Assembly (NCBI GenBank): GCA_003225295.1
Contig: QHYZ01000126.1
Span: forward strand, 1-54,065
From: Acidobacteriota bacterium
GTDB taxonomy: Bacteria; Acidobacteriota; Terriglobia; Acidiferrales; UBA7541
Reading direction: 5' to 3'
Length of the DNA: 54,065 bases
A program made the translations under genes and the position numbers. The notes under the pieces are model-generated. The model worked only from the letters and a program-made list of their open reading frames with translations, was not told the origin of the DNA and did no database searches. Of this stretch, positions 25,529-48,757 are shown piece by piece; within the stretch, counting starts at the first letter, position 1, and every line of letters starts with the position of its first letter.

Positions 25529-25698
25529 CGCCTATGCCCTCTTTACCATGAATCTCACGCTGCTCCTCGCTCTCCAAAAGAGTAAGATATCCGGCGAGAA
25601 GCATTTGCTCTGGAGACGCGTTTGTTGACCTCTCTTTTCGTTGCGTCCGAACCCGATGTATGGTTAGCATGGGGTTCAATGAGGGACTTCGAGCTGCC

Positions 25699-26601
25699 AT
25701 GAAAAAGTTGCACTTTTTGGTTGCCCTTACGACCAATGACAACGATTACCAGATCGAACAGGCGCAATCCGCGCAGCAGATGGCCCGCAAACTGGGGGCG
25801 GAAGTCCAGATCGTTTATGCGGATAATGACGCGATTACCCAGAGCACCCAGATCCTGAAAGCCATTCAGGTTGCCGAGGATAAGAGGCCGGACGCCGTTG
25901 TTTTTGAGCCCGTCGGTGGCACAGCTCTGCCCCAAGTCGCCCGCGCGGCCGCATCCGTCGGTATCGGATGGGCCGTGCTGAATCGCGATGCCAGCTACAT
26001 TCCAGAAATGCGCAAGTCGTCTTCCGCCCCCATTTTCGGAGTGAGCTCCGACCATCTCGAAATTGGCCGGATCCAGGGCCGTCAGTTTGCAGCCCTCCTG
26101 CCCCATGGCGGTGCGATCCTCTATATTCAAGGACCGGCGGAGAATTCCGCGGCCAAGGAGCGTGCCCTTGGGATGCAGGAGACAAAACCATCCAACATTC
26201 ACGTCACCGCGCTGCGAGCGCAATGGACAGAGGAGAGCGCCCAGCGAGCCGTCCGTTCCTGGCTGAAACTGATCACATCGCAAAGGGCCGCCATCGACTT
26301 GATTGGCGCACAGGATGATTCGATGGCCCTCGGTGCCAGGAAAGCCTTTGAAGAATTGGCGAACGAATCGGAACGGGAGCGCTGGCTGAAACTGCCCTTC
26401 ACCGGCTGTGACGGCTTACCCAAGACAGGTGAGGCCTGGGTGCGCAGTGGACTGTTGGCCGCGACCGTCTTTGTTCCTCCCAATACCGGGCAGGCCATCG
26501 AGATGATCTTCCAGGCCATTCAGAACGGGAAAAAGGCCCCTGAGCGCGCCCTAACCGTACCCGTCTCCATCCCCGCCCTGAATGAGTTGAAGAAGCGCTA
26601 G
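25699..26601 (+). CDS. Sugar-binding-fold protein (Peripla_BP_4 type) without signal peptide
   Basis: 300 residues from the ATG at 25699 (MKKLHFLVALTTNDNDYQ); ATGs at 25660 and 25669 are alternatives. The fold is that of ribose/galactose-binding proteins and LacI effector domains: FLVALTTNDNDYQIEQAQSA, a middle DAVVFEPVGGTALP, and the hinge-like SSDHLEIGRIQGRQFAALLP. No signal peptide or lipobox precedes the fold and no DNA-binding domain is attached, so it is probably cytoplasmic. No ABC permease or ATPase gene lies nearby. It could be a ligand sensor or a domesticated binding protein heading the sugar-oxidation cluster. Role uncertain. Confidence 0.78.
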   Translation: MKKLHFLVALTTNDNDYQIEQAQSAQQMARKLGAEVQIVYADNDAITQSTQILKAIQVAEDKRPDAVVFEPVGGTALPQVARAAASVGIGWAVLNRDASYIPEMRKSSSAPIFGVSSDHLEIGRIQGRQFAALLPHGGAILYIQGPAENSAAKERALGMQETKPSNIHVTALRAQWTEESAQRAVRSWLKLITSQRAAIDLIGAQDDSMALGARKAFEELANESERERWLKLPFTGCDGLPKTGEAWVRSGLLAATVFVPPNTGQAIEMIFQAIQNGKKAPERALTVPVSIPALNELKKR

Positions 26602-26684
26602 CCGTGGTTCCCGATTTTATACTTTTTGCTTGTCCACCCTTCCCCAGTTCCGGATCAAGTTCAATAGAAAAACGATTTGCCTGC

Positions 26685-26712
26685 TTGCCGAGGCCATACA
26701 TCGTCGTATAAT
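26685..26712 (+). promoter_or_regulatory. Promoter of the sugar isomerase / GMC operon
   Basis: TTGCCG (26685-26690), 16-bp spacer and a perfect TATAAT (26707-26712). The predicted start near 26719 gives a 46-base leader before the ATG at 26765. A weak palindrome with central CG (26696-26709) overlaps the -10 box. Confidence 0.6.
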
Positions 26713-26764
26713 ACTGCCCACTCAAAGGGGGCTCACTCGATTGCTGCGTTTGCCGAGGAGACGC

Positions 26765-27895
26765 ATGATGAAACAACCCAAGAACTCGGCCATCGGCCGG
26801 AGGGAGTTTTTGGCTGCCACCAGCGGCCTGCTGGCGGTCACAGTTCCAGGGGCTGAAATGATCGCCCACGCGGCAAATACCGAGAGCCCGCTTCCAAGCT
26901 TTCCCGTACCCCAGCCTGCCGGTAACTTACATAAGATTCCCATCGGCGTGTTTGACCCGGTCTATGACCACCTCTCCCTCGACGCCATGCTGGACAAGGT
27001 CAGCGCCCTGGGCCTGGAAGCCATGGAGATCGGCACGGGAGGCTATCCGAACAATCCCCACTGCCCCCTGGACGACCTCATCGACGACCGGGGTAAGGCC
27101 AAAGCTTGGTTGAAAAAGTTTGAAGACCGGGGAATTCACGTCGCTACTCTCAGTTGTCATGGGAACCCCATCCATCCTGATGCCAAGCATGCCCAGAGAG
27201 ACATCGATACGTTCCACAAGACCGTTCGCCTCGCCGAAATTCTCGATGTAAGAGTCATCGTCGGCTTTTCCGGCTGCCCGGGCGGAACTCCACAGGATAC
27301 CCAGCCGAATTGGATCACCTATCGCTGGCCTCCCGAATATGCCAAGATGCAAGATTGGCAGTGGAAAGAGAAGGTCGTTCCGTACTGGAGGGATGCCGCG
27401 AAGTTCGCCCGCGAGCACGGCGTCAAGCGCCTCGCCCTGGAGATGCACCCGAACTTCGTGGTCTATAATCCTCGCACCCTCATGAAGCTCCGCGAGGCCG
27501 CCGGCGAAGAAATCGGTGCAAACTGCGATTTGAGCCACCTCTTTTGGCAGGGCTGTGATCCTGTCGAAGTCATCCACTTTCTGGGCAAACAGGGCGCCCT
27601 TTTCCACGCGCACATGAAGGACACCGTTTTCTTTGCCGAGAACGTCAATAAGTACGGAGTGCTGAACTTTGCGTTTGAAACCAGTGAACTTGACCTGGCC
27701 TCGGAGACTTTCCGTGCCGTCGGCTATGGCCACAGCGCCAGCCTCTGGAAGTCGATCATCAAAGCGTACATGGACGTTGGCTTCGAAGGCATTCTTAGTA
27801 TTGAAAATGAAGATCCCATTCTCGCGGGAGAGGTGGGGGTCGAGCGCGCCGCTTATGTTTTGAAAAACGTGCGTAAAGAGCTTTTGGGTGAATAA
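26765..27895 (+). CDS. Tat-exported sugar phosphate isomerase/epimerase-like TIM-barrel protein
   Basis: 376 residues from the ATG at 26765 (GGAG upstream). The N-terminus has a Tat-like signal (GRREFLAATSGLLAVTV). The body is an AP-endonuclease-2/xylose-isomerase-like TIM barrel. Metal-ligand motifs appear in order: LEMH (Glu, His), NCDLSH (Asp, His), FHAHMKD (His) and SIENED (Glu). Family members isomerise or epimerise sugars, including 3-keto sugars. It is the first gene after the TATAAT promoter and precedes the subunit-3/GMC genes by 73 bp, so it probably acts on products of sugar oxidation in the periplasm. The exact substrate is not inferable. Confidence 0.87.
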   Translation: MMKQPKNSAIGRREFLAATSGLLAVTVPGAEMIAHAANTESPLPSFPVPQPAGNLHKIPIGVFDPVYDHLSLDAMLDKVSALGLEAMEIGTGGYPNNPHCPLDDLIDDRGKAKAWLKKFEDRGIHVATLSCHGNPIHPDAKHAQRDIDTFHKTVRLAEILDVRVIVGFSGCPGGTPQDTQPNWITYRWPPEYAKMQDWQWKEKVVPYWRDAAKFAREHGVKRLALEMHPNFVVYNPRTLMKLREAAGEEIGANCDLSHLFWQGCDPVEVIHFLGKQGALFHAHMKDTVFFAENVNKYGVLNFAFETSELDLASETFRAVGYGHSASLWKSIIKAYMDVGFEGILSIENEDPILAGEVGVERAAYVLKNVRKELLGE

Positions 27896-27968
27896 TATGC
27901 TTTGCCGCCCTGAAGTTCGGCGGCCCGAACAAAATAATCTGTATGTAAGAACAGGTCGGGGAGGATCT

Positions 27969-28568
27969 ATGCAACGGCGTGAAGCGCTGAAGTTGCTTTT
28001 GGCCGGCGGCGTGTTGCCGGGACTACGCACTGATCTTTTTGGCTTCTTCCGCGATGCCCATCCCGCTTCCGGATACGCGTTGCGCACCCTGAGTCCCAAT
28101 CAGAACGACATGGTCGTCGCGATGATCGATCACATTATTCCTGCCACGGATACGCCCGGTGCCCGAGCGGCGCGCGTCAATGAATTCATCGACGTCATCC
28201 TCAGCGAATGGGCCACTGCCGACGAACGCCAGAATTTTCTCTCCGGTCTCGCCGATGTTGACAAGCGGAGCAACGAGCTTTTTGGAAAAGACTTCGTCGT
28301 TGCGTCCCCGGCGCAACAGCTGACCCTTCTGCTCGCCATGGACGACGCCGTCTCCGCCGAGCGCAGCCGCCGGACGCGTCACTCTTCCGATTCTTCGGAC
28401 GAGCGGGATACACAGCTGAAGGGCAGCTTCTTCTCCGTCTTCAAGAACATTACCCTCCACGGTTATTACACTTCCGAAATCGGATTCACTCAAGAATTGA
28501 AGCTCCAGATCATTCCCGGTGCGCAGCATGGTTGTTTGCAGGTTGGCCCCGGACTTGGGGACGCCTGA
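27969..28568 (+). CDS. Gluconate 2-dehydrogenase subunit 3 family protein (copy 1)
   Basis: 199 residues from the ATG at 27969 (GGAGGA upstream). The N-terminus is Tat-like (MQRREALKLLLAGGVLPGL). The core matches the small subunit of membrane flavoprotein dehydrogenases: MVVAMIDHIIPATDTPGA, the spacer with FIDVILSEW, and the terminal FKNITLHGYYTSEIGF. Known relatives bind the GMC catalytic subunit and assist its Tat export and maturation, as in glucose 3-dehydrogenase. It lies 15 bp upstream of GMC 1, its likely partner. Confidence 0.87.
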   Translation: MQRREALKLLLAGGVLPGLRTDLFGFFRDAHPASGYALRTLSPNQNDMVVAMIDHIIPATDTPGARAARVNEFIDVILSEWATADERQNFLSGLADVDKRSNELFGKDFVVASPAQQLTLLLAMDDAVSAERSRRTRHSSDSSDERDTQLKGSFFSVFKNITLHGYYTSEIGFTQELKLQIIPGAQHGCLQVGPGLGDA

Positions 28569-28583
28569 AAGCGAGGAGCGACT

Positions 28584-30269
28584 ATGCCGACTGCACCCTA
28601 CGACGCGATTATTGTTGGCTCGGGAATTACCGGGGGCTGGGCCGCGAAAGAACTTACTGAAAAAGGCCTGAACACGCTGGTCCTCGAAGCTGGCCGCACC
28701 ATCGTTCCGGAGCGCGACTACGTCGAGCACGTTCCCATCTGGGAGCTGAAGTATCGCGACTGGGACAATCGCGCCGAACGCGAGCGCACCCAGCACATCC
28801 AGCGCGAGTGCTACTACGCATGCGACGAATACTCCCATCAGTTTTTTGTTAGCGACGCGGACAATCCCTATTCCTCGGCCCCCGGAAAACACTTTTCCTG
28901 GATTCGCGGCCGCCAGGTGGGCGGCAAATCCATCACCTGGGGACGGCAGAGCTATCGCTGGAGCGATCTCGACTTTGAGGCCAACCTGAAAGAGGGAATC
29001 GGAGCGGATTGGCCTATCCGCTATGCGGATCTCGCGCCCTGGTACGACTACGTCGAAGAGTTTGCCGGCATCAGCGGCCAGGCCGAAGGCTTGCCGCAAC
29101 TCCCTGACGGAAAATTCCTCCCGCCGATGGAGATGACTTGCGTGGAATTGGATCTCCGCGATGCCCTCGCCAAACATTTCGACGACCGCATGATGACCAT
29201 CGGCCGCTCTGCGGTGCTCACGCGCGTCCACAAGGGACGCGCCGCATGCCACTACTGCGGGGTTTGCCATCGTGGGTGCATCACCCAGTCTTACTTCAGC
29301 AGCCTGAATTCGACGCTACCCGCCGCGCAAAAAACTGGCCGCCTCACCATCCGCCCATACAGCGTCGTTCACAGCCTCAACTTCGATCCTCAAACGCGCC
29401 GCGTTAGCAGTGTGCGGGTCATCGATGCGCAATCCAAGAACGCGCTTGAATTCAAGGGCCGCATCTTTTTCATTTGCGGTTCGACGCTGGAATCCACTCG
29501 CATTCTTCTCAATTCCGCCACACCGGAATTTCCCAACGGCCTTGCTAACTCCAGCGGCGAACTCGGCCACAATCTGATGGATCACCACATGGGCAGCGGC
29601 GCTAGCGGCGAAATGCCCGGCCACGAAGACAAAATGCCCTTTGGTAATCGCCCCAACGGCATCTATATCCCCCGCTTTCGAAACGTGAAAACAAAACACC
29701 GCGATTTTCTCCGCGGCTACGGCTACCAGGGCGGCGGGAGCCGCGAAGGCTGGACTCGCGGCATGCATATGACCGGCCTGGGGGCCGAGTTTAAAAATTC
29801 TCTGAAGATGCCCGGCCCGTGGCACGTGAGTATCGGCGGTTTCGGCGAGTGCCTGCCCAATCACAATAATTACGTCGAAGTCGACAAGGAAAAACTCGAC
29901 GCCTGGGACATCCCCACACTGAAAATTCACTGCGATTGGAGCGACAACGAACGGGCCATGTCCAAGGATATTGCCAGCCAGGCTGCGGAGATGCTGGCCG
30001 CCGCCGGCGCCAAGGGCATCGACGTTAGGCAGAAAATCACTCCGCCTGGTCTGGCCATCCACGAAATGGGCACGGCGCGGATGGGCCGCGATCCGAAAAC
30101 TTCCGTGCTCAACGAGCACAATCAAGCGCACGAGGCGAAGAATCTATTTCTCACCGATGGTGCCTGCATGGCGTCTTCCTCCTGTGTTAACCCTTCGCTC
30201 ACTTACATGGCTTTGACCGCGCGCGCTTGTGATTTCGCCGTTTCTGAAATTAAGAAGAACAATCTGTAA
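28584..30269 (+). CDS. GMC-family flavoprotein dehydrogenase with Fe-S motif (GMC 1)
   Basis: 561 residues. FAD-binding Rossmann motif GSGITG (12-17) sits in DAIIVGSGITGGWAAKEL. The GMC active-site pair is His493 (IHEMGTARMG) and Asn536 (CVNPSLTYM). A cysteine cluster, CHYCGVCHRGC, places Cys222, 225, 228 and 232 in CX2CX2CX3C spacing, as in ferredoxins; related FAD dehydrogenases carry a Fe-S cluster in this position. No signal peptide of its own, so export would be by hitch-hiking with the Tat-borne subunit 3. The family includes glucoside 3-dehydrogenases, which oxidise C3 of sugars and pass electrons to cytochrome c. Substrate inferred from context only. Confidence 0.88.
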   Translation: MPTAPYDAIIVGSGITGGWAAKELTEKGLNTLVLEAGRTIVPERDYVEHVPIWELKYRDWDNRAERERTQHIQRECYYACDEYSHQFFVSDADNPYSSAPGKHFSWIRGRQVGGKSITWGRQSYRWSDLDFEANLKEGIGADWPIRYADLAPWYDYVEEFAGISGQAEGLPQLPDGKFLPPMEMTCVELDLRDALAKHFDDRMMTIGRSAVLTRVHKGRAACHYCGVCHRGCITQSYFSSLNSTLPAAQKTGRLTIRPYSVVHSLNFDPQTRRVSSVRVIDAQSKNALEFKGRIFFICGSTLESTRILLNSATPEFPNGLANSSGELGHNLMDHHMGSGASGEMPGHEDKMPFGNRPNGIYIPRFRNVKTKHRDFLRGYGYQGGGSREGWTRGMHMTGLGAEFKNSLKMPGPWHVSIGGFGECLPNHNNYVEVDKEKLDAWDIPTLKIHCDWSDNERAMSKDIASQAAEMLAAAGAKGIDVRQKITPPGLAIHEMGTARMGRDPKTSVLNEHNQAHEAKNLFLTDGACMASSSCVNPSLTYMALTARACDFAVSEIKKNNL

Positions 30270-30283
30270 GGAGAAAGCGTCGA

Positions 30284-31987
30284 ATGCCCCAAGTGATCCG
30301 GTCTCCAAAACTGTACGATGTATGCATCATCGGCTCCGGCGCCGGCGGAGGCATGGCGGCGAAGATTCTCACCGAGGGCGGCCTGAACTGCGCCCTGCTG
30401 GAAGCCGGGCCGAACGTCACTCCCGAAAAAGATTTCAAGATGCTCATGTGGCCGTACGAATTGCCGCACCGCGGCGCCGGGGTGGGCGGAACCGCACGGG
30501 AGAATTTCAGCGAGTTCCTCGCACCCAACGGGGCCTGGGAGATTGATGGCGAGCCCTATACTTCGGCGCCGGGCGCAAATTTCCAGTGGTTCCGCTCGCG
30601 CATCGTCGGTGGCCGTACCAATCATTGGGGCCGCATTGCCTTGCGGTTTGCTCCCATCGACTTCAAATCCGGCTCGCGCGACGGTCTCGGCGACGACTGG
30701 CCGATTACCTACGAAGACCTCGCGCCTTATTACGACAAAACCGAAGCTTACATTGGCGTATTTGGAACAAAAGAAAATGTTTCGAGCGCACCCGATGGTG
30801 TTTTTCTCCCGCCGCCTAAGCCGCGCTGTACGGACATCCTGGTCAAGAAAGCGTGTGACAAGCTCAACATTACTTGCATTCCGGCGCGGCTCGCGATTTT
30901 GACGAAATCGGTGAATGGCAGACTGCCATGTCACTACTGCGGGCAATGCGGGCGCGGCTGCATTACCGCGTCGAATTTCAGCTCGAGCCAGGTGCTGCTT
31001 CCTCCGGCCCTGAAAACGGGGAAGCTGACGCTGATTACCGGGGCGATGGCCCGCGAGATTCTTGTCAGCAAAGACGGCAGAGCCGAGGGCGTCTCCTACA
31101 TTGACAAAGCGACGCGTTCGGAGAAGCGCGTAAACGCGCGCGCGATTGTCGTGGCCGCAAGCGCCTGCGAATCCGCGCGCCTCTTGCTGAACTCCAAATC
31201 CTCCGCCTTTCCAAACGGTATCGCTAACTCCTCCGGCACTGTCGGCAGATATCTCACCGACTCCGTCGGTAGTGACGGCCACGGCCACATCCCTGCGCTG
31301 GAGAAAATTCCACCGCACAATCACGACGGCGTCGGCGGAATGCACATGTACGTACCATGGTGGAAATTTGACCGCAAGAACGATTTCCCGCGCGGATACC
31401 ACATCGAATTCGGGGGTGGCCCGAACATGCCCGGCGTGGGCATGTTTGATGGACTCTGTCACGACGAAGAGGGTTACGGCGCAAAGCTGAAGAAGCGCGC
31501 CCGCCAGGTTTACGGCACATACATCGGCTTCTCTGGCCGCGGCGAAATGCTGCCCAATCCGGATACCTACTGCGAGATCGATCCTGACGTCGTGGACCAG
31601 TGGGGGATTCCGGTGCTGCGCTTCCACTTCAGGTGGACCGATTACGAGTTGCTCCAGGCCAAGGATATGCAGGAAACCTTCCGCGCCATTGTTGAAGCCA
31701 TGGGCGGCGAATACCGGACCAAAAGTTCCATCCACGGGGAGTATCCCTTCGGCATTCAGATGGGTGGAAAAATCATTCATGAAGTTGGCACCGCCCGCAT
31801 GGGTGCCGATCCGAAGACGTCCGTGCTCAACGGCTTTTGCCAGGCCCACGACCTGAAGAATTTGTTTGTCACCGATGGCGCACCGCTGGTAACCAATCCG
31901 GACAAAAATCCGACGCTGACAATCATGGCCCTCGCCTGGCGCGCTTCCGAGTATCTTTTGGAGGAGGCCAAGAAAGGCAACTTGTAG
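30284..31987 (+). CDS. GMC-family flavoprotein dehydrogenase with Fe-S motif (GMC 2)
   Basis: 567 residues, AAGGAG upstream, 14 bp after GMC 1. FAD motif GSGAGG near residue 14 in DVCIIGSGAGGGMAAKIL. Active-site pair His499 (IHEVGTARMG) and Asn542 (DKNPTLTIM). The cysteine cluster CHYCGQCGRGC gives Cys216, 219, 222 and 226 with the same CX2CX2CX3C spacing as GMC 1. The two proteins are diverged paralogues; the middle part, which shapes the substrate pocket, is least alike. A second subunit-3 gene follows, so each GMC probably has its own small subunit. Confidence 0.88.
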   Translation: MPQVIRSPKLYDVCIIGSGAGGGMAAKILTEGGLNCALLEAGPNVTPEKDFKMLMWPYELPHRGAGVGGTARENFSEFLAPNGAWEIDGEPYTSAPGANFQWFRSRIVGGRTNHWGRIALRFAPIDFKSGSRDGLGDDWPITYEDLAPYYDKTEAYIGVFGTKENVSSAPDGVFLPPPKPRCTDILVKKACDKLNITCIPARLAILTKSVNGRLPCHYCGQCGRGCITASNFSSSQVLLPPALKTGKLTLITGAMAREILVSKDGRAEGVSYIDKATRSEKRVNARAIVVAASACESARLLLNSKSSAFPNGIANSSGTVGRYLTDSVGSDGHGHIPALEKIPPHNHDGVGGMHMYVPWWKFDRKNDFPRGYHIEFGGGPNMPGVGMFDGLCHDEEGYGAKLKKRARQVYGTYIGFSGRGEMLPNPDTYCEIDPDVVDQWGIPVLRFHFRWTDYELLQAKDMQETFRAIVEAMGGEYRTKSSIHGEYPFGIQMGGKIIHEVGTARMGADPKTSVLNGFCQAHDLKNLFVTDGAPLVTNPDKNPTLTIMALAWRASEYLLEEAKKGNL

Positions 31988-32090
31988 CGTCGGGAATCGA
32001 AGAAGAAGAGAAAATAACCTCGAGGCGCAGAGCTCGCAGAGAAGAGAAGCCAAGAACAGAGACGAAGAGAGAAGAGGGAGCGGGCAGGAC
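31988..32090 (+). other. Purine-rich 103-bp leader
   Basis: The gap between GMC 2 and subunit 3 copy 2 is largely A and G on the + strand, with repeated GAGAAG/GCAGAG units. It includes the ribosome-binding region (GGGAGCGGGCAGG). It looks like a low-complexity interspersed spacer repeat inserted in an otherwise tight operon. Confidence 0.5.
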
Positions 32091-32687
32091 ATGGTGAATG
32101 AAGGCATAACACGACGCGATATCTTGAGGACACTGGCGGTGGGAGCGGTGGGTGGGTCGGTGCTGCAGGTGATTCCGGCGAAGGCCGCCGAGTACATCCA
32201 CCAGATGGTGCACAAAGAGAAGGCTGCGGCGCCGGCAGGGAAGTATAGTCCGAAATATTTTTCCGCCCCGCACTACGCCACGCTGATCGCTTTGTGCGAC
32301 TTCATCATTCCCAAGGACGAAAAATCCGGCGGCGCGGTCGAGGCCGGCGCGCCGGAATTCATTGATCTGCTCACCAGCGAGAACCCCGAATATCAATTGA
32401 AGCTCGGCGGCGGGCTCTTCTGGCTCGATGGTTTCTGCACCGACCGTCACGCCAACGTCTTTGTGGAGTGCACGCCGGAACAGAAGAAAGAAGTTCTGGA
32501 TCTGATCGCCTTCCGGAAAAACGCGAAGCAGGATGCTGCACTCAGCCAGGGCGTGGCGTTCTTCTCTTTTCTCCGCCGCCTTACCTGCGACGGCTTCTAC
32601 ACCAGCAAGATCGGTATCGCCGACCTTGGCTATATCGGCAACACGTCGGTCCGCGAATTCCCCGGCTGCCCACCTGTGCCGGACTGA
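32091..32687 (+). CDS. Gluconate 2-dehydrogenase subunit 3 family protein (copy 2)
   Basis: 198 residues with a clear twin-arginine signal (ITRRDILRTLAVGAVGGSVLQ). Core motifs: LIALCDFIIPKDEKSGGAVEAG, PEFIDLLTSENPEY and the terminal TCDGFYTSKIGIADLGYIGN. It is the natural partner of GMC 2, though a purine-rich gap separates them. The Tat signal here is more canonical (RRD) than in copy 1 (RRE). Acts as export escort and structural subunit in characterised relatives. Confidence 0.9.
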   Translation: MVNEGITRRDILRTLAVGAVGGSVLQVIPAKAAEYIHQMVHKEKAAAPAGKYSPKYFSAPHYATLIALCDFIIPKDEKSGGAVEAGAPEFIDLLTSENPEYQLKLGGGLFWLDGFCTDRHANVFVECTPEQKKEVLDLIAFRKNAKQDAALSQGVAFFSFLRRLTCDGFYTSKIGIADLGYIGNTSVREFPGCPPVPD

Positions 32688-33017
32688 GGGCCGTCATCCG
32701 CACGGTCTGACCCGTAAGATGTGATCTCTCCAAAGAAACAAGGGGAATGGCTGCGCCACTCGATGTAGATCCCTCTAGCGGTATGCTCCTGGGAACGGAT
32801 TTCCCTCTTCGGAAATCTGGTTAACGGCAACACTCATGTTCCTTGTAAGTGCTGATTCTAAATGGCCTAGGGGAGGGCCGGATTTCGAAAGAGTTGTGGA
32901 AATCTGTTGAAAAGTCGAACGCCACCTGGTGCGGTTCCGCTCATCACAAGTTCCTTTTGAAAAACGAGCCGCAATATCCGCCACGCTTATCTTTTTTGCC
33001 AAGCAGGTGCCCGGGTT
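32688..33017. other. 330-bp stretch without an intact gene
   Basis: Frames are short and no family is recognisable. A minus-strand ATG near 33002 begins MAKKISVADIAARFSKGT, slightly like a LacI-type DNA-binding N-terminus, but without continuation. The segment runs directly into the serine-hydrolase relic and probably is rearranged DNA. Confidence 0.4.
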
Positions 33018-33473
33018 CTATTTGCGTTTCACTGGAGCCAGGCACTGTCTGAGGGCGGCTCCGTGCCCAAGGAAATCCGCGATCAGATGTTCAAGCCGGG
33101 AATGAACCATTGGGGATACGGATGGTTCGTGACGAAAATGGCGCCGGGCGAGCCAGGCGCGGGCACCACGCTCGAGGAAATGTGTGGCGACATGCCGGGA
33201 AATTATTTTTCCTGGATCCTCCGGTATCCGGAGCGAAACGTCTATGGGTCCACGGAACGATTGGAACAAAACATTCAGGCGATACTTTACGACATGGAAC
33301 CAAAGATGCCACGACGAAGCGCGAAGGATCTGGCGGCGCAGGCATGGTTGGTGCCGGAGGCATGGGCCGAGTCACATCGCATGCAGAGTGCGCTTGTCGG
33401 TCTTTTCGCCGTAGCGGTGATCCGGCAGGCGGCGCGCCGAAGGAGAAGAACCGGAATTCCAAACCAGGCTTGA
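33018..33473 (+). pseudogene. C-terminal fragment of a serine hydrolase (beta-lactamase/PBP-like)
   Basis: From about 33018 the frame reads WSQALSEGGSVPKEIRDQMF, then GYGWFVTK, and later GDMPGNYFSWILRYPERNVY, all typical of the last third of class-C beta-lactamase-like serine hydrolases. The N-terminal SxxK and YxN active-site elements are missing and no upstream frame supplies them. Past about residue 85 the sequence changes to a basic, unlike tail (RRSAKDL, RRRRRTG). A GTG at 33063 could still start translation, but the product could not be a hydrolase. Confidence 0.7.
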
Positions 33474-33709
33474 ATCGAGAGCGCGATTCGCCTTCTGCCG
33501 CGAGGCGGATTCAGATCGCGTCACGTCCCCCTTACGCTTGTCAGGCATCTGCGTTCCAACCGGGGCTTCCATCGAGGAGAAGAAATCATGATCCAGCGGC
33601 TTTTCCTGTTGATGGGGTTGGGTATGGCTCTTCGCGTTGCGGCGCGCGCACAGGAATCTCCGAAGGCGGAATTGTTCCCTACATAAGAAGTGGACGACTT
33701 GAAGACGCC

Positions 33710-35062
33710 CTACGACTTGATCGTGTTGGAGTTCGCGTCCCAATTGACGGCGCTCTTGCGGAAATAGGATTCGTTGGCCATGTGGCAGGCCAGCGCGGCG
33801 TGGTGACCGAAGACAGTGTCTTCGGTGACTTGCTGATGGTTGCGCGCGCCTTGGAAGAATCTCCAGAGGTGAGGTTTTTCTTCGTCCCAGGAAGCGCCGC
33901 GATAGTGGACGCCCTCGGTGATGGGCTCCTTGCCGGGCTTGGGATCGTGCTCCTCGTGCCATTTCTTGAGATAGACTTCGCGCAATGCGCCCGGATAGCC
34001 TGAGACGTAATAGCTGGGCGACTCGTCTTCGCCGGATTGTGGGAAGTAGTTGATGGCGTATTCGGTGACTTCGAGGATGCCTTTGGAGCCCTGGAAGCGG
34101 TAAATTTCCGGCGTATCGCAACCGAGATTGAGGCGCAGATAGACCGGAGCGCGACCGTAGTCGAAGAGCGTGCAATGAACGTCGGGCATGTTGCGTCCGT
34201 CTTTGAAGCGCAGGATATCGCCAAGGGCCATGGCGCGCTTGGGCGGCTCGTTCCAACCGAGCATGAAGTTCATCCCGCTGACGAGATGGACCAGAAGATC
34301 CCCGGCGAGGCCAGTGCCGTATTCCTTCCAGCAGCGCCAGCGCGCGAAATATTTGGGAGAGGTGTCCGGATCCCAGGGTCGCTTGGTGGCGTCGCCTTGC
34401 CAGGTGCCCCAATCAAAATTGCTGAGGGAGAGATCGGGAGGCGGCGGATATTCCCACGCGCCAGTCGGATCGTTCCGGCCGAGCGAGCCTTCGACGAGAG
34501 TGAGAGTGCCGACGATGCCGTTGGCGAGAAGCTCTTTGGCTTTGGCGCAGATGACGGAGCTGACGCGCTGCGAACCGATCTGCACGACGCGTCCGGTTTT
34601 TTGCGCGGCGGCGACCATGGCGACACCGTCGGCAGCCGAATGGGACATGGGCTTCTCGCAGTAGATGTCTTTTCCAGCGCTGACGGCGTCAACGACGACT
34701 TGCTTGTGCCAATGGTCGGGGACGGCGGCGATGAGGCAGTCGATTTCTTTGTTATCCAGGAGATCCTTGTAGCGGCGTGTGGTGGGGATTTTCTTGCCGA
34801 CAATTTCCTGGGCGAGAGTGTGGCGGCCGTCGTAGAGGTCGCAAGCGGCAACGCATTCGACGCCGGGCAATTGAATGGCATCGCGGAGCAGGCCGGAACC
34901 CTGCATGCCGATGCCGATGATGCCGAAACGGAGACGGTCGCTCGGCGCCGTGGATTGCATCGGCAGCGGGATGTGCTCCGGCTCCAGAAAAATCGCCGAC
35001 GAAGCCGCGAGGGCGCCGGCAGTGCGATGGAGAAATTGACGGCGGGAAAGATCTTTTTTCAT
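33710..35062 (-). CDS. Tat-exported Gfo/Idh/MocA-family oxidoreductase
   Basis: 450 residues, AAGGAG before the ATG. Twin-arginine signal at 5-25 (LSRRQFLHRTAGALAASSAIF). NAD(P)-binding motif GIIGIGMQGSGLL near 47-58, catalytic-site element CEKPMSH, and the C-terminal sandwich domain (DWGTWQGDATKRPWDPD, EITRFQ-like EIYRFQGSKGILEV). Secreted members of this family work with tightly bound NAD(H) on glycosides, and some oxidise sugar C3. It sits downstream of the DUF1080 gene on the same strand (141-bp gap), the arrangement known from 3-keto-glycoside pathways. Substrate inferred. Confidence 0.9.
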   Translation of the reverse strand: MKKDLSRRQFLHRTAGALAASSAIFLEPEHIPLPMQSTAPSDRLRFGIIGIGMQGSGLLRDAIQLPGVECVAACDLYDGRHTLAQEIVGKKIPTTRRYKDLLDNKEIDCLIAAVPDHWHKQVVVDAVSAGKDIYCEKPMSHSAADGVAMVAAAQKTGRVVQIGSQRVSSVICAKAKELLANGIVGTLTLVEGSLGRNDPTGAWEYPPPPDLSLSNFDWGTWQGDATKRPWDPDTSPKYFARWRCWKEYGTGLAGDLLVHLVSGMNFMLGWNEPPKRAMALGDILRFKDGRNMPDVHCTLFDYGRAPVYLRLNLGCDTPEIYRFQGSKGILEVTEYAINYFPQSGEDESPSYYVSGYPGALREVYLKKWHEEHDPKPGKEPITEGVHYRGASWDEEKPHLWRFFQGARNHQQVTEDTVFGHHAALACHMANESYFRKSAVNWDANSNTIKS

Positions 35063-35203
35063 GGTGCGCTCCTTGAGAGAGTTAACAGTTTCAGTTGACC
35101 ATCAGACGCAAAGAGTTGGAACAAGACCGTTCTACTCCGTTCAGTTAGGCTGTGAAACGGAGAGTGACCGAAAAAGTGGCGGCCGAGCTGCCGAACTCCA
35201 AGA

Positions 35204-35878
35204 CTATTTCAACGGCTGAACGCTTACTTCCTTGAAAAAGACGATGTCGTTGTCACTGTGATTCTGCAGGCCGATGTAGCCCTCGTTGGGGCGAGGGCCA
35301 TGCTGCGGCTCGAAATCGAATTTGCGCTCAGGAACGGGCTGGCCTTCGGTGTAGTCGGTGACCGTGACGTCGTTAAGGACGACGATGGTGCGCGGACCAT
35401 CGAGCGTGATGAGCATGGTATTCCACTCCGGACCGGGTTTACCAGGCTTGGCGAGAGGCTTGGTCAGCGAATAGAGCGTGCCAGTGATGTGATAGTCGTC
35501 TTCATTGGACGTTTCGGGGTGATTGTCAATCTGGACTTCGTAGCCGTAGTGGACAGGCATCCATTCCTCGCGCGGTTCGAGGGGGATGCGAATGAAGACG
35601 CCGGAATTATCGTTGAAGTCGCGCATCTTGTAGACCACGCGGATGCGGCAATTGGAGAGCTTGCCGCCGGTCCAGTACAGAAGTCCCATGCCGCCGTGCG
35701 TGCGAATGAGTCCGTCTTCCACTGTCATGTTGCCGGGGCCGACGTGTTTCCAGCCGGTGAGATCCTTGCCGTCGAACAGCGGCTTCCAGGCCGGAGCTTG
35801 CGGCCGCGCGGCGGCCAACGCGAACAGAGTCGAGACCGAGACGACCATCAACGTTGTTACCCATTTGCGCGGAGTCAT
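35204..35878 (-). CDS. DUF1080 / 3-keto-disaccharide hydrolase family protein
   Basis: 224 residues from the ATG at 35878, which has GAGGAGA upstream and starts a signal peptide (MTPRKWVTTLMVVSVSTLFALAAA). Family hallmarks: WKPLFDGKDLTGWKHVG at the N-terminus of the jelly-roll, YKMRDFNDNSGVFIRIP, YEVQIDNHP and the C-terminal GYIGLQNHSDNDIVFFKEVSV. Members characterised from gut Bacteroides cleave 3-keto-glycosides formed by Gfo/Idh oxidoreductases. Here the gene lies between an isomerase/epimerase and a Gfo/Idh gene on the same strand, and opposite the GMC dehydrogenase operon, strongly suggesting that activity. Confidence 0.9.
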   Translation of the reverse strand: MTPRKWVTTLMVVSVSTLFALAAARPQAPAWKPLFDGKDLTGWKHVGPGNMTVEDGLIRTHGGMGLLYWTGGKLSNCRIRVVYKMRDFNDNSGVFIRIPLEPREEWMPVHYGYEVQIDNHPETSNEDDYHITGTLYSLTKPLAKPGKPGPEWNTMLITLDGPRTIVVLNDVTVTDYTEGQPVPERKFDFEPQHGPRPNEGYIGLQNHSDNDIVFFKEVSVQPLK

Positions 35879-35947
35879 GGCGCGTTTCTCCTCGGAAAGA
35901 TCAACCAAGCAGGAGGCTCCGACCGGCCGGAGCCCCTACGAAGAAAA

Positions 35948-36847
35948 TCAAAACTGCAAGTTGTGAAGATAGTCGTAGCTGATCTTGATGTCGTCGAAGG
36001 CGGATTTCGGGTCGTCGTTTTCGACGAAATAATGTTTAATTCCGGCCTTACCGGAGTGTGCAAAAAGATTTTTCCAGTTGATGGAACCTCGCCCGACATC
36101 CGCCATGCGACCACCATATTTGACGGACTGACCCATCGCGCCCTGGTATCCGCTCGAAGAGGAGGCGTCCTTCACCCAGTCTTTTACGTGAACTAGAGGG
36201 AAACGGCCGGAATGCCTTTCGAAATAGGCCAGAGGATCCTGGCCGGCGACACTGATCCAGCAGAGATCCATTTCCATGGCGACTAGTTTGGGATCCGTCT
36301 CGGCGAGGAGAAAATCGTAAGGGAGTTTGCCGCCGAGCGAATCGGCGGGATCGAATTCGAATGAGTGATTGTGGTAGCCGAACTGGATGCCTGCCTTCTT
36401 GCTGGCTTCGCCGGCACGATTGAACAGATCCGCGGCGCGCTTCCAGCCGTCCGGTTCCTTGCGCTGCTTCTCGTCAATCCACGGGCAAATGATGTAGCCG
36501 TGGCCGACGATTTTCGCGGCGTCCAGAGCTTCGGACCACTTTTTCTCGACGACGTCATAGCCCACGTGGCACGAAGGCGCGGCTAAGCCATTCTTATCGA
36601 GGATCGCGCGAACGTCTTTCGGAGAATGGTCGAAGTAGCCAGCGAATTCGACTTCCTTGTAGCCAGTGGCAGCGACTTTCGCAATGGTGCCTTCGAAGTC
36701 GGACTTCATGGCGCCGCGCACGGTGTAGAGCTGCACGCCGACGCGGTCAATATGATGTGCGGGGTCCGCAGCCAAGGAAGTGCGTGAGGTCGTCAGAGCG
36801 GCTGCGATGGAAGTACTGATAAATGTGCGTCGATTCATGAGCCGCAT
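35948..36847 (-). CDS. Exported sugar phosphate isomerase/epimerase-like TIM-barrel protein
   Basis: 299 residues from the ATG at 36847 (AAGGAG five bases upstream; a second ATG at 36838 is less well placed). Tat-like signal MNRRTFISTSIAAALTTS. TIM-barrel landmarks: VGVQLYTVRGAM, GYKEVEFAGY, FGYHNHSFEF (His ligand), AMEMDLCWI (Glu, Asp) and VHVKDW (His). The C-terminus YFVENDDP carries the last Glu. First gene of the minus-strand trio isomerase - DUF1080 - Gfo/Idh. It likely processes a 3-keto sugar or equivalent in the periplasm. Confidence 0.88.
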   Translation of the reverse strand: MRLMNRRTFISTSIAAALTTSRTSLAADPAHHIDRVGVQLYTVRGAMKSDFEGTIAKVAATGYKEVEFAGYFDHSPKDVRAILDKNGLAAPSCHVGYDVVEKKWSEALDAAKIVGHGYIICPWIDEKQRKEPDGWKRAADLFNRAGEASKKAGIQFGYHNHSFEFDPADSLGGKLPYDFLLAETDPKLVAMEMDLCWISVAGQDPLAYFERHSGRFPLVHVKDWVKDASSSSGYQGAMGQSVKYGGRMADVGRGSINWKNLFAHSGKAGIKHYFVENDDPKSAFDDIKISYDYLHNLQF

Positions 36848-36943
36848 TTTACTCCTTCCGGGAGAAAAGGGAACCGAGATTCGCGGAGAAAAACAAGAGC
36901 CGTGGCTTTTCACGTGCCGCCCTTCTTAGCCTAGTTGTTTGTG

Positions 36944-37062
36944 CTAGAAACGGAATTTCGCCGCGACCTGCATGATGGGAGGATAGCGGCACCGGTGATG
37001 ATTCTAAAAGTACTGGTAGAATCAATGCTGCCACCTGGACTGGTGAATTGCGCAATCGTCGC
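36944..37062 (-). pseudogene. C-terminal relic of a TonB-dependent receptor, frameshifted
   Basis: On the minus strand one frame reads FTSPGGSIDSTSTFRIITG, the usual loop before the last barrel strand in Oar-like receptors. Near 36985 the match moves to another frame, YPPIMQVAAKFRF followed by TAG (36944-36946), the typical last strand with terminal Phe. A frameshift and the absence of the rest of the gene mark it as a remnant. It lies directly downstream of intact receptor 2, so it may be what is left of a second tandem receptor. Confidence 0.6.
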
Positions 37063-37178: not shown

Positions 37179-40100
37179 TTAAAACTGGAACCGCAGACCG
37201 AACTGCATGCGGCGCGGAGCATGGGCACCAGTCGCATGGAGGAAGGTCGAAGATCCCAGAGAAGAATCGATACCCGTAAATTGCGTATGGTTGAAAAGGT
37301 TGTAGTTCTCCCAGCGGAAATCGAACGCCTTGTGTTCTCCGATCGGGAAACGTTTAAACAAACCGAAGTCGAAGTTCAAGCGGCCCGGGGAGTACAAAGT
37401 GTTACGCCCCACATTGCCGAAGGTCAGGCCCCTGGGTGTTGCAAAGGCCGCTGGATCAAAGAAGAGCGGCCCGAACACACCGGGTACCTCGGTTTTCGCG
37501 ATATGTGGGTTTCCGACTATGTCGGGGCGCGAGCCTGTGCCGACGCCGTTGCCCACGCCAGCGCTGTCGCCAAAGTCCGTCCCATTCGTGACGCTGAAGG
37601 GGTTGCCGGTCTGGGCGATCGTGATCCCAGAGAGCTGCCAGCCGCCGAGGAGTTTGTTCTGCAGGTTGCTGCCCCTGAAAAGCGGCAAGGCGTAAACGTA
37701 GCTGACCGCAAGATTGTGGCGTTGATCGAAACTCGAACTGGCGCGATTGACGGCGGTGTTGTAAGAATCCACGAACGCGCCGTCATAGCGGTCGGAGGAA
37801 TCGTCAATGGAATGGCTGTAGGTGTAGGCGACGCTTAGCTGGAGATCGCCGAGCGTACGCCGCGCAGAGAATTGCAGGGCATGATAGATCGAATTGGCCG
37901 TATCCTCGAGACGAGTGATGTTGCCGAACCCAGTGAGTGGCCGCTCGGGGTTGGGGTCATTGCCACAAGCAACGCTAAGATTGGCAGCCACCTGGCCAGA
38001 GACCGGCTGGCCGTTTACCGTGCCACCACTCAGCAAGACATCCGGGCAGACAGTATTGAAGGGCGCCGAAGGGTTCGTGGGATCCTGCACGATGATGGGC
38101 TCGCCTGCCGTGTAGGGATCTGCCGAGGCAGCGATGGGGTGCAGCTGATTAATATTTCGTTGTAGCGTTAGGTGCGTCCCTTTGCTGCCAACGTAAGAGA
38201 GAGTCGCCACGAAGTGCCCGGGCAATTCCCTCTGAACGTCCAGATGCCACTGCTGGACGTATGGCCAAATGGCCTTGCTGGGGATGGAATTCACGGAGAG
38301 TGGAAAGAAGGGAACAACCCCACCGCTGCCACCGATGTTCCCGTAGCCAGTGATGTTAAATTGCGATGCATTGAGCGCGAATGGGGCAGAGCCTTCGAGC
38401 GACTCGGTGTTGCCCTCGTTGCCGTTCGTGTGTTCGAAGAAAATGCCATAGCCGCCGCGGATAGCCATCTTGCCGTCATTCTTGGGATCGAAAGCGAAGC
38501 CGATCCGCGGCGCCGGGTTGAAGAGATGCCCCTTGACGCAGCCGGCGTTCGAACTGGAGCCAGCGGCGGCATTGGGGAATCCATCCACAGGGAAGGTCCC
38601 GCCTGCGCCGCCGCATTGGACGATGCCGTTAAACGGATTGCCGGTACCTGGCTCAAACGAGCCCGCGAATGTAGTGACCGAACCGTCGGCATCGATGATG
38701 GGCGCGTTGGCGGCAGTGAAGGCATTCGGATCAAAATTAAAAGCATGTCGGTACCGCTCTCGGTAAGTTCCGTAGAGGCTGAGCCGGAGACCAAGGTTGA
38801 GGGTCAGGCGTTTGGTGACTCTCCAGTCGTCCTGGAGATAGGGCTCAACAATTCTGTAGCGGTTGTAATACTTGGGCTCGAGATTCCACTGTTGGTATTG
38901 CGCGATGTTTCCCAGCAGCAAGTCAGCGAAGGCGTTTCCCGAGCTGACCGTAGAATTGCTGGAATCGAATGTGAGGATGCCCTGCAGGTTCGCAGAGCTT
39001 TGCTCGTTTTTCTGAGCAAACACCAAATAGGCTCCAAACGTCATCGTATGGTTACCGAGAATTTTGGTTAGGTTATCCCGATAGGTAAACGTAGGATTGG
39101 CGTTGTTCCAGGGAAAATACCCGGTGTCTTGAGCAAGACCGTCACCACCGCCATAAGCGGTGTTGTTCCCCAGAGCAATGGAAGGAAGCTTTCCACCAAA
39201 ACCATTACCGAAAATGGAGCCCATCGCGAAGCCCGCCGGTAGCGTAGTCTCAGAGGCTGGGCCGACGGCTGTCAGGAAGATGTGGTCTCCCGTATAACTG
39301 GCAACGAATTCATTGAGCAGTGTGGGGGAAATGTTGGCGTTAAGACGTGCGACGAAGCTTGTCCCAGGGCCCACAAATTTGGTGTGGATGTCCTGGAAAT
39401 TGGAACTGCCAACGCCCCAGAGCGGGTTCGGCACCTCGGTTTGCCAGGAATCATGAATGTAGCGAAACGTGAGGCGATAATTGTTCGTGAGGTTGTGATC
39501 AATGCGAACCAGCTCTTCGCGCCAAGTTGTGGGCGTCGAGATAATCTGCGAGACGGCTGGAATCGCTGTTCCGTCGTCGAAAAGACCCTTCGTCGTGTTG
39601 GCTTTGGGAATGAGATTAAGGAGCGCGGCGGCCACAGGATCAATGGGTACGGCAGCAGGGTTCGGGACATTTGGACAATCACCGGGCTGGTGAGAGCAGA
39701 GAACAGAGAAATCTCCAGTACGTTCCAGGTCAGAAGGAACGTTTTGAAGAATCGAGGAAGGATTCTTTTCGCGACGCCATTCTTCAGACCAGAAGAAAAA
39801 GGTCTTTTTCTTGTCGGCGTTGTAGTGGTTGGGTAGGTAAACAGGACCACCGACGGTGTAGCCAAAATCATGCTTCTTGTACGGCGGATTGGGATGGGCC
39901 GGGTCATTGCCGGATTCCCAAGGCCGGGCATTGAACACATCATTGCGCAGGTATTCGAAGGCGCTGCCGTGGAAGCTGCTGCCTCCACTCTTGGTTTCGA
40001 CTTCGACGGTGCCTGAGCCGTTGCGGCCGTACTGGGCGCCGTAGTTGGACGTGAGAACTTTGAACTCAGCGATGGCTTCGGGATTCGGATAGACGTTCAG

Positions 40101-40769
40101 AGTGGCATTGCTGCCGTTATCCATGTTGTCGCCACCGTCAAGTTCCCAGTTGTTGTACTCGGTTCGGCCACCGTTCATGCTGAAAGCGACGTTGCCATAG
40201 ATGCCCACGGTGCCCTCGTCTTGACCCGTCTGGTTGACGACGCCGGGTACAAGATTCACGAGCTGAGTGAAATTGCGCCCATTAAGGACGAGTTGATCAA
40301 TTTGCTTGCCGGTGACCGTGCCGCTCAGCTCAGAAGACTGCGTCTCGACTTGAACGACGCTCTCACCGGTCACCTCGATTACTTCATTGATCTCGCCCAC
40401 GGTCAACTGCACGTCGACGCGGATCTTTTGAGCCACGTCCAGCACGACTTTCGTTGCCGAGAATTTCTGGAATCCTTTTGCTGTGACAGCCAGGTTATAG
40501 GTGCCACCAGGCAGAGCAGCCACGACATAGGCGCCGTCTGCATTCGTTGCCGTTGATCGTGTCAAGCTTCCGTCTGCACTGGTAATCACGATGTCCGCTC
40601 CGACGATAGAGGCACCGGACTTGTCGGTGACCGTGCCGCTAATATACCCGGTGTCTTGCGCTGGCAAAGCGAGGGGAAGGGCCAGCGCCATGAGCAGCAC
40701 TCCGAGCCACAGCCACGCGACTCCCAAAATATTCTTTCGAAGATTGGAAAGGTTTGAGTTTTCCTTCAC
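37179..40769 (-). CDS. Oar-like TonB-dependent receptor with N-terminal carboxypeptidase-regulatory domain (receptor 2)
   Basis: 1196 residues from the GTG at 40769, chosen because GGAGG lies 8 bases upstream and a signal peptide (GVAWLWLGVLLMALALPLALPAQ) follows. Residues 40-125 are a CarboxypepD_reg domain (DTGYISGTVTDKSGASIVGAD). The plug at about 135-250 contains GKQIDQLVLNGRNFTQLVNL and NNWELDGGDNMDNGS. The barrel follows and ends in terminal Phe (MQFGLRFQF). Glycan or glycan-fragment uptake is the probable role. It precedes the isomerase/DUF1080/Gfo trio on the same strand, but a terminator separates them. Only distantly similar to receptor 1. Confidence 0.93.
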   Translation of the reverse strand: MKENSNLSNLRKNILGVAWLWLGVLLMALALPLALPAQDTGYISGTVTDKSGASIVGADIVITSADGSLTRSTATNADGAYVVAALPGGTYNLAVTAKGFQKFSATKVVLDVAQKIRVDVQLTVGEINEVIEVTGESVVQVETQSSELSGTVTGKQIDQLVLNGRNFTQLVNLVPGVVNQTGQDEGTVGIYGNVAFSMNGGRTEYNNWELDGGDNMDNGSNATLNVYPNPEAIAEFKVLTSNYGAQYGRNGSGTVEVETKSGGSSFHGSAFEYLRNDVFNARPWESGNDPAHPNPPYKKHDFGYTVGGPVYLPNHYNADKKKTFFFWSEEWRREKNPSSILQNVPSDLERTGDFSVLCSHQPGDCPNVPNPAAVPIDPVAAALLNLIPKANTTKGLFDDGTAIPAVSQIISTPTTWREELVRIDHNLTNNYRLTFRYIHDSWQTEVPNPLWGVGSSNFQDIHTKFVGPGTSFVARLNANISPTLLNEFVASYTGDHIFLTAVGPASETTLPAGFAMGSIFGNGFGGKLPSIALGNNTAYGGGDGLAQDTGYFPWNNANPTFTYRDNLTKILGNHTMTFGAYLVFAQKNEQSSANLQGILTFDSSNSTVSSGNAFADLLLGNIAQYQQWNLEPKYYNRYRIVEPYLQDDWRVTKRLTLNLGLRLSLYGTYRERYRHAFNFDPNAFTAANAPIIDADGSVTTFAGSFEPGTGNPFNGIVQCGGAGGTFPVDGFPNAAAGSSSNAGCVKGHLFNPAPRIGFAFDPKNDGKMAIRGGYGIFFEHTNGNEGNTESLEGSAPFALNASQFNITGYGNIGGSGGVVPFFPLSVNSIPSKAIWPYVQQWHLDVQRELPGHFVATLSYVGSKGTHLTLQRNINQLHPIAASADPYTAGEPIIVQDPTNPSAPFNTVCPDVLLSGGTVNGQPVSGQVAANLSVACGNDPNPERPLTGFGNITRLEDTANSIYHALQFSARRTLGDLQLSVAYTYSHSIDDSSDRYDGAFVDSYNTAVNRASSSFDQRHNLAVSYVYALPLFRGSNLQNKLLGGWQLSGITIAQTGNPFSVTNGTDFGDSAGVGNGVGTGSRPDIVGNPHIAKTEVPGVFGPLFFDPAAFATPRGLTFGNVGRNTLYSPGRLNFDFGLFKRFPIGEHKAFDFRWENYNLFNHTQFTGIDSSLGSSTFLHATGAHAPRRMQFGLRFQF

Positions 40770-40930
40770 GTTAAGACCTCCAAGAAAGATTCGAATTTGG
40801 GGAGACATGACATGCAAGGGCCCAGCGCGCAGGGTTAGAGCGGCTACCCCTGAAGTCACCCCGCGCAGAAAGCTCCTGATCGGACACAGCCTCCACCACT
40901 CGACGACCGCAGGCAACGCACCAAAGGTGT

Positions 40931-48607: not shown

Positions 48608-48757
48608 ACTCAGGACTCCCGCGTATTCAGCTCCGTCGTTTTCTCCGCAGGTTGCAAGGTATCAGCTTTCAGAAGGTCCGCAATCGGAATCTTAGGAAAG
48701 CCGAAATTTGGACATCGCCGGCCTCCAGGGGGTAGGATGCTCGGAAAGGAGATACCC

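Follow-up and report, generated by a model that had tools for sequence, protein, structure and literature searches.

An acidobacterial gene cluster with two GMC dehydrogenases and an exported Gfo/Idh protein, predicted to cleave glycosides outside the cytoplasm by oxidation, elimination and hydration

A stretch of 54,065 nucleotides from an Acidobacteriota bacterium (assembly GCA_003225295.1, contig QHYZ01000126.1, forward strand), here called the window, carries two convergent groups of genes that probably encode a pathway for cleaving glycosides outside the cytoplasm without hydrolysis, by oxidation, elimination and hydration. To this reading, which involves two joined modules and predicted reactions, we assign a probability of roughly 0.6. 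The + strand module encodes a TIM-barrel protein (iso1) and two GMC-family dehydrogenases, each with a small subunit (S3a with GMC1, S3b with GMC2), while the - strand module encodes an exported oxidoreductase of the Gfo/Idh/MocA family (Gfo), a DUF1080 protein and a second TIM-barrel protein (iso2) (Table 1). What was observed directly comprises the genes and their conserved neighbourhood, the export-type signals, the folds, and the conservation of ligands and motifs. A preliminary description of this DNA had proposed oxidative deglycosylation of the 3-keto type around a DUF1080 hydrolase, with a respiratory and a nicotinamide adenine dinucleotide (NAD)-linked oxidation route; Pfam recovers all of the genes that it listed, at the same coordinates, and the oxidative cluster and its layout are supported. 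The central place of DUF1080 and the combination with a GH3 glycosidase are not supported, the isomerase labels probably need to be changed, and the second oxidation route is less certain. The genome (8.1 Mb in 385 contigs) has its closest named GMC1 matches in acidobacterial "gp2" metagenome-assembled genomes (MAGs). It belongs to a soil-type acidobacterium, in which the two gene sets probably serve to release sugars from other molecules, outside the cytoplasm, after an initial oxidation of the sugar.

In the proposed scheme, GMC1/S3a and GMC2/S3b would oxidise a glycoside at C3, with a 3Fe-4S cluster carrying the electrons on towards respiration. The 3-keto-glycoside would then undergo beta-elimination, catalyzed by iso2, which resembles AtOGE of Agrobacterium tumefaciens, and/or by the DUF1080 protein, which resembles BT2157 of Bacteroides thetaiotaomicron, giving the aglycone and 2-hydroxy-3-keto-glucal. 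Water would be added to the latter by iso1, which resembles AtHYD, or by the DUF1080 protein itself, generating a 3-keto-sugar. In the least certain step, the exported Gfo, with its NAD(H) locked in, might oxidise glycosides while reducing the 3-keto-sugar, a redox-neutral reaction, or might only reduce.

The GMC proteins bear features of FAD dehydrogenase complexes with a 3Fe-4S cluster. Their cysteines Cys222, Cys228 and Cys232 (GMC1, invariant in all 15 aligned sequences) and Cys216, Cys222 and Cys226 (GMC2) are spaced by 6 and 4 residues, as are Cys212, Cys218 and Cys222 of BcGDH, which bind its 3Fe-4S electron outlet (PMC6719666). Since both share this spacing, they are more likely to be dehydrogenases than oxygen-using oxidases. 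The catalytic pair of GMC1, His493 and Asn536, is likewise invariant (15/15). In a tree of 192 GMC sequences the two enzymes fall into separate clades, with 149 leaves and a support of 0.995 on the GMC1 side and 41 leaves and a support of only 0.458 on the GMC2 side, and genes of both types lie within 3 kb of each other in the gp2 genus and in two further loci (L128, L135; L and G numbers denote loci and genomes) and further apart in L139 and L145. Small subunits accompany both, the S3 profile matching in 73 of the 80 named GMC1-type loci (the best 80 of 591) and an S3 gene being present in 18 of the 19 GMC2 loci L103-L121. Tandem arrays of GMC1-clade genes were also seen in Bacteroidota, with six genes in L183, four in L165 and three each in L176 and L180.

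The next steps would fall to the proteins labelled isomerases in the preliminary description. Both are indeed encoded by AP_endonuc_2 genes, but iso2 is probably a beta-eliminase similar to AtOGE and iso1 probably a hydratase similar to AtHYD. When iso2 is aligned with AtOGE (8bvk), the metal ligands His132, Asp163, His189 and Glu233 and the catalytic His134 are all kept, and the H134A variant of AtOGE is devoid of activity (PMC10628242). The model of iso1, with a mean predicted local distance difference test score (pLDDT) of 71.7, matches the fold of AtHYD (8ro4) with a Z score of 29.0 and a root-mean-square deviation of 2.7 over 292 aligned residues, at 18% identity.

The DUF1080 protein matches PF06439 with 144.1 bits, the curated cut-off being 26.8, and a profile built from DUF1080 proteins, those of the window type among them, matches 8tda (E 2.9e-34), 8rr2 and 3osd, all at E about 3e-34. 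Through this profile the LQNH of the window protein aligns with the MQDH of 3osd, and the His of the LQ-x-H pattern is kept; it is not kept in the DUF1080 paralogues of two other loci of the same genome (L085, L087). The lengths suggest that 3osd is mature BT2157, which has 290 residues (PMC11003636), and that the conserved His corresponds to H275, whose change to Asn (H275N) leaves the B. thetaiotaomicron lyase deficient in hydration (PMC13273386). The two paralogous loci, L087 on contig C224 and L085 on contig C110, pair DUF1080 with a twin-arginine Gfo (67% and 43% identical to that of the window), and no GMC match was seen in the stretches fetched.

Most of the enzymes appear to be destined for export. 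Sequence inspection revealed twin-arginine-type N-termini on iso1, S3a, S3b, Gfo and iso2, the Arg-Arg and Phe of the signal being invariant in 15/15 aligned Gfo proteins and in 12/12 close iso1 orthologues, and TatC is encoded in the genome. The preliminary description likewise has Gfo exported by the twin-arginine translocation (Tat) route. GMC1 and GMC2 have no export signal of their own and would leave the cytoplasm riding on S3a and S3b, a mechanism proposed for BcGDH (PMC6719666).

The clustering of these genes is real and beyond chance. Orthologues were compared across 250 genomes of the class, at an identity of at least about 60% for GMC1, GMC2 and Gfo, and were taken as linked when within 15 kb of each other. 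This was the case for GMC1 and Gfo in 10 of the 18 genomes having both (0.12 expected), for GMC1 and GMC2 in 12 of 16 (0.09 expected), for GMC1 and DUF1080 in 8 of 13 (0.09 expected) and for Gfo and DUF1080, a recurring pair, in 13 of 17 (0.13 expected). The genomes are related, so that the counts are not independent, although G018 and G236 belong to another family. The counts took 32 of the GMC2 matches at this level and the DUF1080 matches listed down to G113, plus G142 and G174, the DUF1080 rows omitted being genomes without a listed GMC1, and five genomes with contig edges (G174, G194, G244, G106 and G232) were scored as unlinked. By profile hidden Markov model, the density of DUF1080 matches is 1.95 per 100 kb across the 25 loci that surround GMC1 orthologues and 1.39 per 100 kb in the 80 named GMC1-type loci, compared with a background of 0.061 per 100 kb (5 in 8134 kb) in the genome of the window, where the eight other small-subunit loci gave no match. 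The named loci hold a TIM-barrel isomerase gene in 45 cases, Gfo in 22, and both together with DUF1080 in 13. The GMC1 type is found beside DUF1080 elsewhere, the Gfo-DUF1080 pair recurs, and the earlier assignment of the cluster to oxidative deglycosylation is supported.

Similar gene content is found on plasmids, of which 8 of the 40 loci listed in one search and 3 of the 20 in another were examined. GMC1 is 50-52% identical to plasmid-encoded GMC proteins of Xanthomonas sacchari, Hymenobacter volaticus, Ketogulonicigenium robustum, Spirosoma oryzicola and Catenovulum adriaticum, 47% to that of Novosphingobium capsulatum and 45% to that of Haliscomenobacter hydrossis. An annotated DUF1080 gene lies within 8 kb of the GMC gene in 4 of 7 plasmid loci, and the Xanthomonas and Hymenobacter clusters also hold isomerases, a cytochrome c and Gfo. 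A Rhizobium plasmid GMC (31%) considered as a stand-in for the GMC enzyme GlycDH was set aside; around it lie genes for one isomerase, an ATP-binding cassette transporter and a regulator of the LacI type, but no annotated DUF1080 or Gfo.

The two-halved convergent layout was sought in other genomes, as had been suggested, and was found in seven more of the genus. A GMC1 orthologue of 70% identity or more is present in 15 of the 22 other genomes of the genus, and the order iso1-S3a-GMC1-GMC2-S3b is complete in 11 of these 15 loci. Of the other four, two (L051 and L057) are truncated where their contigs end, L056 holds only the S3a-GMC1 pair, and GMC2 is missing from L059. Convergent Gfo-DUF1080-iso2 stands beside the operon in the window, L046, L049 and L053, the contig of L050 ends after DUF1080, Gfo directly adjoins iso2 with no DUF1080 in L045 and L047, and only Gfo, at the end of the stretch, is seen in L052. 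Convergent layouts with one GMC half occur in G018, G077 and G158. Four genomes of the genus (G150, G058, G166 and G244) keep Gfo at 82-86% and give no DUF1080 match at E 1e-40, a threshold below which weaker relatives may exist, and G142 has only a partial DUF1080 match, on another contig. DUF1080 is thus not the fixed centre that it was first taken for: these relatives indicate that it is dispensable here, not always being needed at this place, and iso2 becomes a candidate enzyme for the cleavage. L045 and L047 provide a natural test of the role of DUF1080.

Rearranged versions are found further afield. The order is S3a-GMC1-iso2-DUF1080 in another genus (L061) and DUF1080-S3a-GMC1-iso2 in another family (L068), while in L064 (G018) S3a-GMC1 converges on Gfo-DUF1080 with one Melibiase-family gene (10622-12808) between them, a hint at the substrate in G018. 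GMC2-S3b converges on Gfo in L104 and L120; a BLAST label of DUF1080 beside GMC2 in L104 (G077) was not confirmed by the DUF1080 profile and was not counted. In L109 (G018), iso2, GMC2, S3b, iso1 and a second type of Gfo stand in one row, and the latter is 66% identical to Gfo_cyt, a signal-less Gfo/Idh protein encoded elsewhere in the window, which is therefore linked to the pathway. In L128 and L135, from acidobacterial MAGs, iso1, GMC1, iso2 (57 and 61%) and GMC2 follow one another on one strand, and hence iso2 joins the + operon there.

Several observations weigh against the proposed pathway. BT2156-like structures show the same ligand residues as iso2, so that iso2 could be either an eliminase or a hydratase. 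The fold of iso1 is matched equally well by 2zds, a Streptomyces protein of unknown function (also Z 29.0, the next row being at 25.2), and its profile match to 8ro4, with E 1e-23 when a 27%-identical bridging relative (L150) is included, vanishes without that relative. Deletion of BT2157 and BT2158 in B. thetaiotaomicron left growth on raffinose-family sugars unaffected (PMC11501099). DUF1080 occurs in only 16 of the 80 named GMC1-type loci, its profile finds nothing in 15 loci within the class whose GMC1-clade members are 49-57% identical and nothing in the 19 GMC2 loci L103-L121, and the tie between GMC2 and DUF1080 is weak, with a Pseudoalteromonas locus (GMC2 47% identical) as the supporting case; moreover, in 7 of the 22 other genomes of the genus no GMC1 orthologue reaches 70% identity. 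As for the electron outlet, no cytochrome family was found among ten genes scanned with Pfam at 25660-40916, CxxCH in open frames of at least 60 residues between 25.5 and 41 kb occurs only inside the GMC1 cysteine cluster, and a search of the genome for the cytochrome c of the Hymenobacter cluster gave no match, a weak negative with no positive control. The GMC route was described earlier as respiratory; the 3Fe-4S cysteines are present, but with no cytochrome subunit found in the stretch the connection to respiration is one that we infer. The genome has four COX1-family genes. The TPR protein encoded at 9697-11502 weakly matches multihaem cytochromes and is possibly a distant electron carrier.

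The exported Gfo may act as a second oxidant or as a terminal reductase. By sequence its best solved relative is 8tdf, followed by 3ec7 and 8tdh. By fold, DgpA1 heads the list (Z 32.3; top rows tied within 1 Z; model pLDDT 65.8), and this comparison does not distinguish dehydrogenases from reductases and, with BT2158-type entries not among the 50 rows shown, excludes nothing. Three residues taken to be catalytic in the superfamily, Lys in the EKP-type motif and Asp and His in GDxxxH, are invariant in 15/15 aligned proteins. The window protein reaches 115 bits over its N-terminal half with the BT_2158_fam model NF058561 (cut-off 750), and three twin-arginine Gfo proteins from Bacteroidota reach 470-499 bits over most of their length, also below the cut-off. 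The window and Bacteroidota types are only 24-25% identical and would therefore have to be tested separately. Eight of the 80 named GMC1-type loci contain a twin-arginine Gfo, six of them together with DUF1080, and the combination of GMC and exported Gfo is therefore not confined to this lineage; seven of the eight also hold a Gfo without a signal, one of these being a contig-end fragment.

The preliminary description took Gfo to be a second route of oxidation, but this had distant homology behind it, and the Gfo of the comparable A. tumefaciens operon is a reductase (PMC10628242). Two electron routes are possible, and a simpler explanation, suggested by published relatives, is a single linear pathway with the exported Gfo as its terminal 3-keto-sugar reductase. 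The A. tumefaciens operon is the precedent, holding together a GMC enzyme, an eliminase, a hydratase (preliminary evidence) and a Gfo that reduces 3-keto-glucose (PMC10628242), and the window Gfo scores far under the BT_2158 cut-off. We consider this explanation somewhat unlikely. The signal-less Gfo proteins of the Xanthomonas, Hymenobacter, Ketogulonicigenium and Novosphingobium clusters match Gfo_cyt best (29-40%) rather than the exported protein, the presence of both types in 7 of the 80 named loci suggests two different jobs, and an exported enzyme would have no free supply of NADH. DgpA-type enzymes hold NAD(H) and take 3-oxo-glucose as acceptor (PMC11239390), and the exported Gfo would need internal NAD(H) recycling of this kind. 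It is conceivable, though we think it improbable, that the diffusible 3-keto-sugar made by the GMC enzymes recharges the NAD locked in the exported Gfo, as 3-oxo-glucose does in DgpA, and so serves as an extracytoplasmic electron shuttle besides being a product; if true, respiration could drive the oxidation by Gfo of glycosides that GMC enzymes cannot take.

It also seems unlikely that the + and - operons are two adjacent but independent systems for different glycosides. Gfo-DUF1080 does occur in two genomes that have no GMC1 orthologue (G138 and G196), GMC1 and Gfo are unlinked in G154 and G166, and other genes lie between the halves in several relatives, but the linkage of GMC1 and Gfo noted above includes two genomes of another family, and iso2 directly adjoins GMC1 or GMC2 in L058, L061, L068, L107 and L109. 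The odds of independence are slightly lowered further because iso2 lies inside the GMC operon, between GMC1 and GMC2, in L128 and L135. That the GMC enzymes oxidise something else, such as glucose at C1, fructose at C5 or an alcohol, is suggested by fructose dehydrogenase and BcGDH as their best PDB matches, but it is quite unlikely given the isomerase (45), Gfo (22) and DUF1080 (16) genes in the 80 named GMC1-type neighbourhoods, and with no glucoside 3-dehydrogenase named in the PDB lists the ranking may reflect what has been solved.

Table 1. Genes of the cluster and selected neighbours in the window
Feature	Position	Strand	Remarks
Peripla_BP_4 sugar-binding protein	25660..26601	+	Pfam E 1.5e-30; first gene of + operon
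iso1, TIM-barrel protein, twin-arginine signal	26765..27895	+	Pfam AP_endonuc_2; AtHYD-like by fold
S3a, Gluconate_2-dh3 hitchhiker subunit, twin-arginine signal	27969..28568	+	Pfam E 3.5e-31; GMC1 partner
GMC1, flavin adenine dinucleotide (FAD) dehydrogenase	28584..30269	+	Pfam GMC; Cys222/228/232
GMC2, FAD dehydrogenase of second clade	30284..31987	+	Pfam GMC; Cys216/222/226
S3b, Gluconate_2-dh3 hitchhiker subunit, twin-arginine signal	32091..32687	+	Pfam E 1.8e-28; GMC2 partner
Gfo, twin-arginine Gfo/Idh/MocA oxidoreductase	33710..35062	-	Pfam GFO_IDH_MocA; distant relative of BT2158 glycoside 3-dehydrogenases
DUF1080 (3keto-disac_hyd), signal-like N-terminus	35204..35878	-	Pfam E 6.8e-42
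iso2, TIM-barrel protein, twin-arginine signal	about 35948..36847	-	Pfam AP_endonuc_2; AtOGE/BT2156-like
TonB-type outer-membrane receptor	37179..40916	-	Pfam OMP_b-brl_4, Plug; upstream of iso2
Gfo_cyt, Gfo/Idh protein without signal	47462..48607	-	40% identical to Gfo of Xanthomonas sacchari GMC-DUF1080 cluster
GH3 glycosidase	48557..51076	+	Pfam E 1e-65; divergent from Gfo_cyt, outside core cluster

Several neighbours of the core genes deserve mention. The Peripla_BP_4 gene comes first in the operon for the exported enzymes, in the window as well as in 12 of the 15 fetched loci of the genus, yet its product begins almost directly at the fold, with no evident signal peptide at the N-termini of the window protein and its orthologues. 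A "substrate-binding domain" gene beside a GMC2-type gene in Hymenobacter (L124) was rejected as its counterpart, since the protein begins like a LacI-type regulator. The TonB-type receptor adjoins iso2 also in L046, L047, L049, L053 and L121. The GH3 gene, which the preliminary description combined with the cluster, sits about 12 kb away beside the second, cytoplasmic Gfo; the two frames overlap at their 5' ends (48557-48607), and therefore one of the start codons probably lies further downstream. The gap of about 1 kb between the halves contains an open stretch of 170 codons (32961-33470, + strand) with no good start and no Pfam match, perhaps the remains of a gene, and in relatives the gap holds other genes, those of L045 encoding a PMT_2 protein and a Trans_reg_C-TPR protein. 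Two tandem FG-GAP/ASPIC-UnbV proteins are encoded upstream of the operon (21724-25528) and adjoin it in some loci of the genus. A pattern scan gave 3 promoter-like sites, compared with 4.5 in shuffled sequence, and 18 terminator-like sites, compared with 13.1, and was uninformative.

Cleavage of glycosides by oxidation and elimination is a recent discovery, and the published pathways examined describe one oxidant each. In B. thetaiotaomicron, a Gfo, a DUF1080 protein and a TIM-barrel protein are reportedly encoded together in BT2156-BT2160, described in Nature in 2024. The structures 8tdf and 8tct, which head the lists for Gfo and iso2, presumably come from that work. The window differs in that its Gfo reaches so low a score with the BT_2158_fam model and that a GMC operon stands alongside. 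The BT2156-BT2160 system is also named in PMC9007349 and PMC11501099.

Other known systems resemble different parts of the window. The lactose and salicin clusters of Caulobacter and Pedobacter, with LacABC and DUF1080 (Price et al., PMC9007349), share a GMC-type dehydrogenase complex, DUF1080, epimerase-like proteins and a sugar reductase, and oxidation and cleavage are proposed to take place in the periplasm (PMC9007349). This likeness is one of gene content and of the GMC proteins of similar clusters, and the window differs by its two GMC/small-subunit pairs of two clades, by its twin-arginine Gfo and in that no cytochrome gene was found in the stretch. The A. tumefaciens operon of GlycDH, AtOGE, AtHYD and Gfo (PMC10628242) shares the GMC enzyme, the eliminase-like and hydratase-like TIM barrels and Gfo, to which the window adds DUF1080, twin-arginine signals on the TIM barrels and Gfo, a second GMC pair and a division between two strands. 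DgpA-type enzymes (PMC11239390) share the Gfo/Idh fold, but the partner of DgpA is a separate C-glycosidase complex, no part of which was seen in the window, and the window Gfo has an export signal. A literature search, with most subscription papers outside its reach, found no paper on a 3-keto-glycoside pathway in Acidobacteria. Each set of genes belongs to a known kind of pathway, but joined as they are here, and with two different flavin enzymes, the sets appear to form a new arrangement. Together with Bacteroidota loci that hold GMC, twin-arginine Gfo and signal-less Gfo, in Pedobacter metabolipauper (L172), Flavisolibacter ginsengisoli (L201) and Paraflavisolibacter caeni (L163), the acidobacterial loci allow a test of how the flavin branch relates to the NAD branch: as an alternative to it, as part of one linear chain, or coupled to it through the 3-keto-sugar.

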